From a virus, in the IMG/VR virus record IMGVR_UViG_3300042516_003753, positions 1 through 62,222 of that record: DNA of 62,222 nt. One strand, 5' to 3'. Positions 3,670 to 58,428 of the stretch are shown here, in pieces. The notes below the pieces were generated by a model. That model was given only the letters and a program-made list of their open reading frames with translations, was not told where the DNA came from and searched no databases. Each line of letters opens with the position of its first letter. Positions within the stretch are counted from its first letter, which is position 1. Position numbers and translations under genes: made by a program.

Positions 3670-3706
3670 AGTATATAGCAAAAAGAAAGGGGCGTCAAGC
3701 CCCTTT
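3670..3706 (-). promoter_or_regulatory. Terminator/promoter composite upstream of hli
   Basis: The hairpin AAAGGGGC-TTGAC-GCCCCTTT (3686-3706) ends the polysaccharide island and is followed by a T-rich run. The same bases give TTGACG (3693-3698), 17 bp, TATACT (3670-3675): the -35 is made by the loop and 3' arm, and the T-rich tract is in the spacer. Confidence 0.7.
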
Positions 3707-25277: not shown

Positions 25278-26744
25278 TCAGAACTTAAAGGTTGTCTGAA
25301 TTACCCCACCCCAGTTGGAGGAGTTGTCAGCAAGGCGCTGATTGTCGCTACCGTAGATGATAGCAGGAGTGACGCTGATGTTATCCGATACTTGATACTT
25401 GTAGAAGATTTCAAGAAGAGTGGACTTCTCAAGATTTTCACCAGTAGGTGCTTGACCGATAGCAACACCAGCAGAGTTACCATCAACAAACACATCATCC
25501 CAGGTCAGACCAGCAAACCATGACTGACTGTTAGTAGCAGCACTTTGAGTACCACTCACAGTGTTCCAACCATAACCACCAGAGATAGAAGGAACAATAC
25601 CTGATTTCTGAGGTTGCCAGTAAGCATTCAGTGCATAACCGTTAGAAGTTTGCCCAGGAACTAGAGCACCAGAAGCACCATTCAGACCGTTGTAGGTGCG
25701 AACACGAGTACCTTCAGTACCATAACGATAACCGAATGCAGCACCCCAGTTAGTACCACGATAACCGATTTGTGCAAGAGTATTCAGAGCACCAGTCTCA
25801 TCAAACACTCCAGTTTCACTATCATTACCACTTTGAGCAACATAGTTTACACCAGCAATAAGACCTTTCTTACCATACTGAGCACCGAAACCAGCACCAG
25901 TTGCTTTGTTGTAAACACCAGGAGCACCAGCAACAGCAAAGAAGTCAAGAATACCAGACTTATAAGCAGAAGGCATCCAAGCAATCTCAGTGTTACGAAC
26001 AGCAGCACCAGCAGTCAGAGTTGCTTTGTTATTAAAAGCAGGGAACTGATAGAACAGGCGGTCAATCACTACGTTGTTACCAACTTCACTGGTGGTGTTA
26101 TCTGCCTTATCCAGCTTGAACAGAGAAGAACTAGAACCGAAAGGATCACCACTAAAGTTAGATGAACGCAGACGAGTACGAAGCAGATCCTTACCAGTGA
26201 ACGAAGTGTCCAAATTCAGACGGAGATCGTAGTTAAATGCAGTATGAGTTACATCACCACCTTTGGTACGATAGTCATCAACGCCACCAAGAACAAAGTT
26301 TGCTTCACCACGGAGTTTGGTAGTAGTGGAGAACTGAGTTGCTTCCAGAGAAGCAACTTTAGTTTCCAGGTTTGCAACCTTACCTTGAATAACGGTAAGT
26401 TCATCACGGAACTCATTAGCAAGGCGCTTGAGTTCATCAGTTTGCTCAGTTACGCGATCAAGGCAAGCATTCAGAAGTGCTGCTGCCTCATAACGGGTCA
26501 TAGCACGTCCACCACCAAAGGTGCCGTTAGGATAACCAGCAACGCAACCATAACGCTCTACAAGGTTGCTGAGTGCTTGATACGCCCAATCACTAGGTTG
26601 CACATCAGAAAGTTGCGAAACGCTTGTAACCTGCTCTGTGGAGTATTGATTGACTGCTGACATATTAAGATCTGCAGCATTAGCAGCAACAGGAGCAACC
26701 ATTCCCAGAGCAACAGGTGCAAGCATCAGTTGTTTGAGTTTCAT
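25278..26744 (-). CDS. Cyanobacterial-type outer-membrane porin with SLH domain
   Basis: 488 residues. Signal peptide MKLKQLMLAPVALGMVAPVA cut near ANA-AD. An S-layer homology domain follows at about 45-95 (DWAYQALSNLVERYGCVAGY, FGGGRAMTRYEAAALL), then a short coiled coil (VIQGKVANLETKVASLEATQ), and a long OprB/Som-type beta-barrel to the C-terminal Phe (GVIQTTFKF). These are the features of marine Synechococcus outer-membrane porins. It is probably host-acquired; the likely effect is altered solute or iron entry, or changed receptors. Confidence 0.92.
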   Translation of the reverse strand: MKLKQLMLAPVALGMVAPVAANAADLNMSAVNQYSTEQVTSVSQLSDVQPSDWAYQALSNLVERYGCVAGYPNGTFGGGRAMTRYEAAALLNACLDRVTEQTDELKRLANEFRDELTVIQGKVANLETKVASLEATQFSTTTKLRGEANFVLGGVDDYRTKGGDVTHTAFNYDLRLNLDTSFTGKDLLRTRLRSSNFSGDPFGSSSSLFKLDKADNTTSEVGNNVVIDRLFYQFPAFNNKATLTAGAAVRNTEIAWMPSAYKSGILDFFAVAGAPGVYNKATGAGFGAQYGKKGLIAGVNYVAQSGNDSETGVFDETGALNTLAQIGYRGTNWGAAFGYRYGTEGTRVRTYNGLNGASGALVPGQTSNGYALNAYWQPQKSGIVPSISGGYGWNTVSGTQSAATNSQSWFAGLTWDDVFVDGNSAGVAIGQAPTGENLEKSTLLEIFYKYQVSDNISVTPAIIYGSDNQRLADNSSNWGGVIQTTFKF

Positions 26745-51147: not shown

Positions 51148-51855
51148 TTACACAAAAAAATCTTTTGCTTGATATTCCCAAATTTGATTTGATTTATAAA
51201 ATACTATAATATTTGGATAAAATGAAATACAATTCAAATTTGAATAGATGTTTTCAGAAACTCCATAAGACTTATATTTTTCAATATCCATTTTATTTGG
51301 ATGCCAAACACCATCTGAAGATTGGTATCCTTTCAACCAAGACCAATAATTTATAAGATCACTTAATTTTTTAGAATAATTTACAAAAGAATTTGAATTA
51401 TATCCACCACCACAAACACTCCAATATGATGTATGAATATCTTCAACTATATAAATCCCACCAGGATTCATTTTTGGAAATAAGTATTCAAAAGTTTTTA
51501 TTTGATCCCTGTTTTGATGACTTCCATCATCAATAACAATATCAAATGGTCCATTTTCAAAATTAACAATATCTAAGAGTTTTTCATCTTTTTGATCTCC
51601 AATATAAACTTTACCAATATTGGAAGTTACTGGTAAAATATCAATTCCACATATTTTTGAATTGGGAAATATTTTTTGGTATGCTTGCATACCAGTTCCA
51701 TTATCAACTCCAATTTCAAGAATATTAATTTTTTTGTTTAGATTAAATCCTTTAAAAATATTTTTATAGATATCCCAATAAACTATATGTTTACTAGAAT
51801 ATCCAGGAGTTTTATAAAACTCTTTTATTTCATCAAAGACATTAATTTTAGTCAT
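51148..51855 (-). CDS. Class I SAM-dependent methyltransferase
   Basis: 235 residues. INILEIGVDNGTGMQAYQKI (motif I), SKICGIDILPVTSNIGKVYI, and PFDIVIDDGSHQNRDQIKTF place it near macrocin/mycinamicin-type O-methyltransferases and cephalosporin-hydroxylase relatives. It is outside the polysaccharide island but could modify the same glycans. It has a consensus promoter inside the end of gp41 upstream. Confidence 0.8.
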   Translation of the reverse strand: MTKINVFDEIKEFYKTPGYSSKHIVYWDIYKNIFKGFNLNKKINILEIGVDNGTGMQAYQKIFPNSKICGIDILPVTSNIGKVYIGDQKDEKLLDIVNFENGPFDIVIDDGSHQNRDQIKTFEYLFPKMNPGGIYIVEDIHTSYWSVCGGGYNSNSFVNYSKKLSDLINYWSWLKGYQSSDGVWHPNKMDIEKYKSYGVSENIYSNLNCISFYPNIIVFYKSNQIWEYQAKDFFV

Positions 51856-51867
51856 ACTTATTAGTTT

Positions 51868-53247
51868 TTAAAACTTAAATCCTTCAAAAGATTTTTTAGG
51901 TTTTTTATCTTCATAATCATTATACTCGTCATCCTGCCCACTGTCAAGTATATCTTTTTGAGCAGTTTGTTCACAATCGTACAATCTCATTTTGGCACGA
52001 TCAATACCAACAATAAAGCGTTTATATACTGTTGGATCATTATAACGATTTTTCAATTGCTTCACCATAATCTGTCCCAACTGTTCCAATTCTTCTGTGC
52101 TAATAAGGGCAAACATAAGATCAGCAGTAGCAGGCAGACCAAATGATTCAGAAGTATCAGTAAGTTCAACATCAGAGTTACCATAACCACTACGAGTAGT
52201 TTGGGTAGCAGAGACAATTGGTACATTAAATTCAACTGCCAATCCACGAAGTTCTTCTGCAATTGCTTTAATATAAGAATAAGAATTAACAGAAAGGTTT
52301 GATTTATACCTACTAGAAGCACAAATATTGAGATAATCAATAAAAATAATATCAGGTCTAAATGACTTCTTAAGTGCAAGTTCATTAAGAAGAGATTTAA
52401 AGTGTCCACTGTGTGCAGATGCAGTTGGATATTCCTTAATTATAAGAGTTCCCTGAGTTTTCTTCGAGAGGTTTGTAACCTTATTCTCAAACGTTTGCCG
52501 AGGAAGTTCTACCAATTGTTGAATAGGAACATTCAGAAGGTTTGCATCAATACGTTCAGCAATTTTCTCCTCTGCCATCTCCAATGTAATGTAAAGCACA
52601 TTATGTCCGTTAAGCACACAGGAGCTCGCCATGTGACACATGAAAAGAGATTTACCAACACCTGTCCCAGCAAGAGCGATATTAAGAGTCTTGTTAGGAA
52701 GACCACCTTTTGTAACTTTGTTGAAATATTCCAAATCAAACGGAATACGATCTTCTTTGCGGTGATAAGCATCATAACGTTCCTCATAATCTTGAAGATA
52801 ATCATGACCAACATGATTATCAAACGATACTGCTAGGGCATTTGAAAGAATAGTTGGAATAGCATCTCTGTTTTTCTTTTCATCATTTCCATCGGCAATA
52901 TGGATAGATTCTATTAGGGCAAGATAAATTGCACGATCACGGCACCATTTTTCAGTAGTATCAAGCAACCACTGATTTTCTACTGGTGCATTATGAAAAA
53001 GTTGAGATGTTTCTCTAATTTCTTTGATTTCCGTTTCGGATAAATCCGTGCGATTCTCTATTTCAATGTTTAAAACTTCTGGCGTAATTGCAGACCCATA
53101 TTTGATAATGAATTTAGCAACCTCATCAAAAATGATTTTTTCCGACCTTTTCTCAAAATAATCTGGTTGTATGAATGGTATAACTTTGCGCGAGTAAGTT
53201 TCATTAAAAATCAAATTTCGTAGAATGGTTGTTTCAATTCGTTCCAT
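51868..53247 (-). CDS. gp41: Replicative DNA helicase (gp41-like)
   Basis: 459 residues from MERIETTILRNLIFNETYSR; a longer start adds ten residues inside uvsX. DnaB-type RecA fold: NIALAGTGVGKSLFMCHMAS (Walker A), ITLEMAEEKIAERIDANLLN, PDIIFIDYLNICASSRY (Walker B) and VPIVSATQTTRSGYGN. It unwinds DNA 5' to 3' with the gp61 primase. An acidic tail (GQDDEYNDYEDKKPKKSF) overlies a promoter. Confidence 0.95.
   Translation of the reverse strand: MERIETTILRNLIFNETYSRKVIPFIQPDYFEKRSEKIIFDEVAKFIIKYGSAITPEVLNIEIENRTDLSETEIKEIRETSQLFHNAPVENQWLLDTTEKWCRDRAIYLALIESIHIADGNDEKKNRDAIPTILSNALAVSFDNHVGHDYLQDYEERYDAYHRKEDRIPFDLEYFNKVTKGGLPNKTLNIALAGTGVGKSLFMCHMASSCVLNGHNVLYITLEMAEEKIAERIDANLLNVPIQQLVELPRQTFENKVTNLSKKTQGTLIIKEYPTASAHSGHFKSLLNELALKKSFRPDIIFIDYLNICASSRYKSNLSVNSYSYIKAIAEELRGLAVEFNVPIVSATQTTRSGYGNSDVELTDTSESFGLPATADLMFALISTEELEQLGQIMVKQLKNRYNDPTVYKRFIVGIDRAKMRLYDCEQTAQKDILDSGQDDEYNDYEDKKPKKSFEGFKF
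51919..51947 (-). promoter_or_regulatory. Consensus sigma-70 promoter inside gp41
   Basis: TTGACA (51942-51947), 17 bp, TATAAT (51919-51924) within the last codons of gp41, about 60 nt before the methyltransferase start. Confidence 0.75.
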
Positions 53248-58353: not shown

Positions 58354-58405
58354 ATTATAGCAATAAAAAAGAGGGGAGTCAACTGGATTTTGCCAGTCTC
58401 CCCTC
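58354..58405 (-). promoter_or_regulatory. Terminator/promoter composite after hsp20
   Basis: Hairpin GAGGGGAG/CTCCCCTC with inner CTGG/CCAG (58371-58405) and TTTTTT end the hsp20 transcript. TTGACT (58377-58382), 17 bp, TATAAT (58354-58359) overlap it. Confidence 0.75.
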
Positions 58406-58428
58406 GCGCCGACGATATTCAAAAGTAT

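Follow-up and report, generated by a model that had tools for sequence, protein, structure and literature searches.

Putative dual-function terminator/promoter signals at gene junctions of T4-like cyanophages (Kyanoviridae)

Introduction

Intrinsic (rho-independent) terminators consist of a GC-rich hairpin with a U-tract directly after it and lie at operon ends. The elements described here (composites) share these properties, but their loop or bulge is held to TTGAC and their U-tract lies inside a promoter spacer. They likewise resemble the SigA/sigma-70 promoters of cyanophage early genes (TTGACN-17-TANNNT with a short leader to the start codon), from which they differ in that the bases of the -35 element and spacer also form a terminator hairpin, the spacer of the hairpin-bearing form at SegE-type genes often being 18 bp. 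T4-type late promoters (TATAAATA, gp55) also abut U-tracts (19/136 in cyanophages, 2/32 in T4); they have no -35 element, so that the U-tract end alone is shared, and they occur in this arrangement outside cyanophages.

In single-molecule experiments in vitro, E. coli RNA polymerase was mostly retained on the DNA after intrinsic termination and reinitiated at nearby promoters, from which gene coupling was proposed (PMC6978322, PMC6978380). A terminator near a sense promoter, the geometry proposed for such coupling, is also that of the composites, which overlap naturally, whereas the published work used constructs in vitro and the E. coli enzyme. Reported synthetic modules (PMC4731013) similarly combine terminator and promoter in one part, but with an antisense promoter; the composite promoter has the same orientation as the transcript that ends there and shares bases with it. 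The composite design was not found reported for cyanophages in the literature searched, a scope that did not include the Syn9 transcriptome paper, which may mention it.

Results and discussion

Composite sites in the window

The DNA analysed (the window) was a 62-kb IMG/VR virus record of 62,222 nucleotides, with genes including psbA, hli, hsp20, a gp43-type DNA polymerase and NrdA/NrdB, and with S-SRM01, DSL-LC02, DSL-LC03 and S-SM2 as its nearest DNA and protein matches. Gene content and these matches make it, on sequence grounds, a T4-like cyanophage of the Kyanoviridae; its origin was probably fresh water. The following sites were located, all on the minus strand, the strand that also encodes the neighbouring genes.

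S1, 3706-3670, minus: hairpin 3706-3686 with -35 TTGACG 3698-3693 (loop = TTGAC); U-tract 3685-3680; -10 TATACT 3675-3670; predicted driven gene hli, ATG 3642. Sequence AAAGGGGC-TTGAC-GCCCCTTT, then CTTTTT, then TATACT.
S2, 25268-25234, minus: hairpin 25268-25248 with -35 TTGACA 25262-25257; short U-tract 25247-25244; -10 TATTAT 25239-25234; porin gene on one side, 51-aa ORF (25212-25057) on the other. Sequence GGGGGGTTGACAAAACTCCCC, then TTTT, then TATTAT.
S3, 39287-39253, minus: hairpin 39287-39269 with -35 TTGACA 39281-39276; U-tract 39268-39264; -10 TAGAAT 39258-39253; next gene SegE-type GIY-YIG, ATG 39204. Sequence AGAGGGTTGACAACCCTCT, then TTTTT, then TAGAAT.
S4, 58405-58354, minus: two-part hairpin 58405-58371 with -35 TTGACT 58382-58377 in bulge and 3' arm; U-tract 58370-58365; -10 TATAAT 58359-58354; hsp20 on one side, DUF6561 gene and DNA polymerase cluster on the other. 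Sequence GAGGGGAG-ACTGGCAAAATCCAGTTGA-CTCCCCTC, then TTTTTT, then TATAAT.
S5, 676-651, minus: psbA terminator 676-657 with U-tract; not a composite.

The four composites of the preliminary description were thus all placed to the base, compared with a mean of 0.02 in dinucleotide shuffles of the window (n = 60, maximum 1) and none in the reversed sequence. S1 to S4 form stable GC-rich RNA hairpins as expected of intrinsic terminators, judged by folding energy (-13.0, -13.6, -10.4 and -21.4 kcal/mol, respectively), z (-3.4 to -4.1) and covariation, and their hexamers match the sigma-70/SigA consensus at 10-11 of 12 positions with a spacer of 17 bp, as in near-consensus promoters. That the hairpin supplies TTGACN held at each site; the -35 element of S4 lies in an asymmetric bulge beside the inner hairpin rather than in an apical loop. 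The U-tract was also correctly described as lying within a 17-bp spacer, the T-run directly after the stem being 5-6 T at S1, S3 and S4 and only 4 T at S2. The genes after S1 to S4 are hli, the 51-aa ORF, the SegE-type gene and the DUF6561 gene, respectively. Perfect TTGAC-N18-TANNNT matches numbered 20 in the window, 17 of them on the minus strand, and four overlap terminators. A weaker composite had been claimed after psbA (S5); its terminator is good (-11.5 kcal/mol), but a promoter is unsupported, since the best -35 candidate, GTAACA, stands 18 bp from TAATCT, and the site was rejected as a composite because these hexamers are below promoter quality.

The porin gene beside S2 (25278-26744) is a host-like SLH/OprB gene in a phage, for which a full-length relative among deposited phages was found only in S-SRM01 (70%). 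In that phage the porin gene lies at 184913-186388 and a composite follows at 186414.

Proposed mechanism and polymerase recycling

Once transcribed with the upstream operon, the element would fold as an intrinsic terminator and release the transcript at its U-tract. As DNA, these bases would also act as a SigA/sigma-70 promoter, in which the hairpin loop or bulge is the -35, the 3' arm and U-tract make up a spacer of 17 bp (sometimes 18 bp), and the -10 element comes after the U-tract; a new transcript would start 5-8 nt past the -10. Upstream (often late) readthrough would be blocked, and the downstream gene would receive its own host-sigma start at minimal cost in DNA. This stop-and-restart, already put forward in the preliminary description, appears to be the reading that best fits the anatomy. 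Our main reading, that the composites are lineage-wide, selected dual-function junction signals of Kyanoviridae in which a terminator and a host-type promoter occupy the same bases, is given a probability of about 0.82. Sequence comparison establishes that the two signals share bases, that both are conserved and that the stem evolves around the promoter; that both work in infected cells, and that the benefit is isolation of the downstream gene, is what we infer from this.

Termination would leave the polymerase positioned over the promoter; it is therefore plausible both that upstream transcription occludes the promoter and that retained polymerase reinitiates there. The preliminary description suggested that polymerase paused at the hairpin may influence initiation; reinitiation at nearby promoters after termination has been demonstrated in vitro (PMC6978322, PMC6978380). 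According to one alternative, a polymerase that has terminated is not released from the DNA but initiates again at the promoter beneath it, which would couple downstream expression to upstream transcription instead of insulating the two. The anatomy of the preferred explanation accommodates this recycling model, the difference being one of function; the model draws on the retention and nearby reinitiation of the E. coli enzyme (PMC6978322, PMC6978380), and the terminator-promoter distance in the composites is zero. However, those demonstrations concern E. coli polymerase in vitro and not the cyanobacterial enzyme, restarts were mainly antisense in one study, the 2020 papers did not establish recycling at sense promoters in vivo, and recycling and simple stop-and-restart give the same sequence picture. 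As the main function, recycling is regarded as rather unlikely; coupling alongside insulation is possible, since RNA polymerase usually stays on the DNA after intrinsic termination (PMC6978322, PMC6978380). The composites form a natural set of terminator/promoter pairs at zero distance, some orthologues have the hairpin and others lack it, and laboratory phages are at hand (S-PM2, S-SM2, Bellamy); recycling of the polymerase after termination, and occlusion of the promoter, could therefore be tested in living cells.

Spacing across cyanophage genomes

Ten cyanophages (the window, S-SRM01, S-SM2, DSL-LC02, DSL-LC03, Syn9, S-PM2, SynMITS9220M01, Syn33 and Bellamy) yielded 429 terminator-like hairpins, each of which was examined for a -35/-10 pair lying across its end. 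With a spacer of 17 bp, 25 pairs were obtained against 3.4 expected (maximum 9 in 300 swaps of the downstream sequences); spacers of 14, 15, 16 and 18 bp gave 1, 0, 1 and 2 pairs, respectively, and 19 bp gave 8 against 2.9 expected. The -10 element mostly lay +7 to +11 nt from the start of the U-tract. A scan for strict composites returned 24 over the ten genomes, and none in any of the ten genomes when reversed. Strict composites were absent from T4, HTVC008M and P-SSP7, and no convincing composite was found in Syn9. Composites in laboratory phages include one at hli03 of S-PM2, near 124301, and two in S-SM2, at 167141 and downstream of hsp20 near 121650. Phage T5 is rich in terminators and promoters; it was considered as a precedent and rejected, as the scan gave one poor site.

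Orthologous junctions

Upstream of hli, the promoter was present in 53 of 58 distinct viral loci and the hairpin in 43 of 58, with stems such as AAAGGGGC/GCCCCTTT, AGGGGTG/CACCCCT and GAGGGGAG/CTCCCCTT around a constant TTGAC. The second family precedes the gene of the following entry.

SegE-type GIY-YIG gene, 39204-38755; orthologues L314-L393; near-invariant promoter TTGACA..TAGAMT.

Here the promoter was found in 61 of 70 distinct loci and the hairpin in 40 of 70, the stems being very unlike one another (AAGCACCTCT/AGGGGTGCTT, GGGGGTT/AACCCCC, AGAGAGGACTT/AGGTCCTCTTT). At both junctions the -35 and -10 elements are near invariant and many stem positions hold 1-2 bits, and the arms are more complementary within a locus than when swapped between loci (z 8.0 and 10.7). 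At the hsp20 junction, 46 aligned relatives carry changes on both sides in 6 of 7 outer pairs, compensating cells number 48 against 21 in shuffles (0/500), and the inner CTGG/CCAG is unchanged throughout; TTGAC and a -10 at spacer 17 occur in 64 of 70 loci. The claimed double use of the same bases is accordingly borne out by spacing, orthologues and arm complementarity as real, recurrent and selected for both signals.

Twenty SegE-type orthologues (about one-third of the promoters) have the same promoter without a hairpin, and no substitute terminator was found within 300 nt upstream of these, which suggests that insulation is optional at this gene. Stem and U-run were gained or lost jointly (39/9/1/11, p = 5e-6, with a hairpin score independent of T; an alternative table of 40/0 versus 0/20 is partly circular, its score having required T), a coupling that favours a terminator over an operator. 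An 18-bp spacer was seen in 19 of 40 hairpin-bearing SegE-type promoters versus 1 of 20 hairpin-less ones (p = 0.001), as if the stem pushed on the promoter.

Ordinary terminators and promoters might adjoin merely through short intergenic space, the overlap being functionless and the register unselected. Intergenic gaps of cyanomyoviruses are indeed short (median 6 bp in S-PM2d; PMC5931967), and about a third of SegE-type promoters manage without a hairpin; however, the offsets are concentrated, mainly at a spacer of exactly 17 and a -10 position of +7 to +11 relative to where the U-tract starts, and at each of three independent junctions with orthologues the stems have been rebuilt while TTGAC stayed constant. 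Given the swap tests and the spacing, chance adjacency is disfavoured and we consider it improbable. That the inverted repeat is instead a DNA operator for a regulator covering the -35 is hardly credible: repeats across the -35 do occupy a classical operator position and the inner CTGG/CCAG of S4 is sequence-invariant, but the repeats differ wholly between and within junction families with compensating pair changes, the stems are tied to U-tracts (p = 5e-6) and the RNA folds are stable.

Under the preferred reading of stop-and-restart signals, a compact phage genome would have evolved a pair of signals in a single stretch by keeping the promoter and rewriting the stem around it. By sequence, the composite design is some 45 bases long, occurs at several gene borders in freshwater and marine cyanobacterial viruses, and is kept while the hairpin bases change; as such it characterizes the cyanophage family and not a single genome, which goes beyond the preliminary description, as do the predicted late-promoter version, the hairpin-less orthologous promoters and the role of S4 in also closing a conserved RNA element.

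In S-SRM01 (W01), near-identical composites GGGCACTTG..CAGGTGCCC-TTTCTGGTATAAT are repeated at 52015, 52419 and 56767, and others, AGGTGCTTTCGGGCACCT-TTCTTGTATAAATA, at 51289, 55999 and 62450; this near-identical recurrence suggests that whole terminator/promoter modules may have been duplicated there.

Pattern search blind to the 5' arm

The pattern TTGAC-N(1-4)-CCCCTTTTTT-N(2-6)-TATAAT leaves the 5' stem arm unspecified. In 85,000 cellular species it gave 83 distinct sites, 15 of which (18%) had a stem of 5 bp or longer. Such a stem was present in 102 of 111 distinct sites (92%) in viral contigs, and a spacer of 17 in 82 of 111, among the matches listed, which were the first 120 and not a random sample, the distinct loci being mutually related so that the counts are not independent events. 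The difference in stem frequency, with the viral side again taken among the matches listed, gave a Fisher p of 4.5e-27, and 113 of the 120 viral stretches listed matched Kyanoviridae proteins over at least 10% of their length. Cellular genomes were rejected as the source of the design, the pattern there being mostly without a stem; the arrangement is not unique to phages, since 15 of the 83 cellular sites pass the same stem test. A further scan of viral contigs for AGAGGG-stem terminators was dropped, as this stem was too specific and few informative loops were obtained.

Late-promoter version

Two sites in the window join a terminator to a T4-type late promoter.

Late-type composite, 40357-40324, minus: terminator 40357-40336; U-tract running into TATAAATA 40331-40324.
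Late-type composite, 46604-46565, minus: terminator 46604-46576; U-tract running into TATAAATA 46572-46565.

Of the 19 cyanophage sites (among 136) at which TATAAATA abuts a terminator U-tract, 10 belong to S-SRM01; two control words gave about 2/340. This form is not limited to cyanophages, since it is also present in T4 (2/32).

A candidate small RNA at the hsp20 junction

S4 also forms the end of a second conserved unit.

Candidate small RNA of about 56 nt, 58420-58365, minus: predicted +1 G 58420, 5' GAATATCGTCGGCGC, CTGG/CCAG hairpin and U-tract; closed by S4.
Putative T4-type late promoter TATAAATA, 58433-58426, minus: overlaps the stop codon of hsp20 and lies 5 nt ahead of the G that is conserved in the RNA element.

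The layout is TAAATA-N5-GAATATCGTCG...hairpin...UUUUUU with a conserved 5' block GAATATCGTCGGCGC (GAAUAUCGUCG as RNA), and the TAAATA-N5-G spacing is constant in 50 of 65 loci. T4 late promoters have TATAAATA at -13 to -6, so that the conserved G is the expected start of a late transcript; the window copy fits this promoter in sequence, but relatives often have C at the third base (CTAAATA in 30 of 70). A covariance model of the element found one strong copy in nine of the ten cyanophages, the exception being DSL-LC02. In Syn9, S-PM2 and Syn33 the copy follows hli or other genes and not hsp20, and the copies of Syn9, S-PM2 and DSL-LC03 have no TTGAC/sigma-70 promoter. A search of IMG/VR with the RNA core alone gave at least 116 distinct copies; among the matches listed, 95 had terminator and promoter, 15 had a T-tract without TTGAC, and at least 12 had no hsp20 directly upstream. 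From the sites away from hsp20 in Syn9, S-PM2, Syn33 and IMG/VR contigs, the candidate RNA is a conserved unit independent of its neighbour genes. Neither gathering-threshold nor E-value searches gave an Rfam match at 58365-58420.

The simplest reading would be a small late RNA gene, the terminator of which was later co-opted as a -35 region. The fuller proposal is tentative, and we rate it somewhat short of even odds: that the hsp20-junction composite closes a candidate late small RNA that is family-wide in T4-like cyanophages and so far undescribed (some 56-64 nt, with a TAAATA-N5-G gp55-type promoter, 5' GAAUAUCGUCG, a CUGG..CCAG hairpin and an intrinsic terminator), that in most phages this terminator became the -35 region of the next operon, and that late synthesis and host-sigma initiation meet on the same bases, where they may interfere or couple via polymerase recycling. 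The composites would in this way point to a widely conserved phage RNA.

Further positions of the candidate element are L064:4123, L071:4959 and L102:1457. A 10-nt complement of its 5' end in the window's peroxiredoxin-like gene (2511-2520) was not retained, being gene-internal and close to chance.

Minor observations

Two phages have a rearranged junction downstream of hsp20: in S-T4 (L013:1933-2030), TTGACA begins in the 5' arm and the -10 stands right after the stem, the U-tract being missing; in S-CAM9 (L017:1933-2030), TTGCCT lies inside the hairpin with TATAAT 17 bp further. The hsp20 leader gave recurrent weak, sub-threshold matches to the ROSE_3 RNA thermometer in three phages (window 58921-58858, L016:1445-1506 and L012:1445-1506), and its sequence GGATGCC..GGGTCCAC..ACTCGCTT..AAGGAG is conserved across cyanophages. 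Rfam matches elsewhere in the window were wcaG RNA at 20510-20413, with a terminator (20415-20391) directly after it, PhotoRC-II at 1909-1821, upstream of psbA, and an abiF-type RNA at 29555-29519, beside the tRNA cluster.
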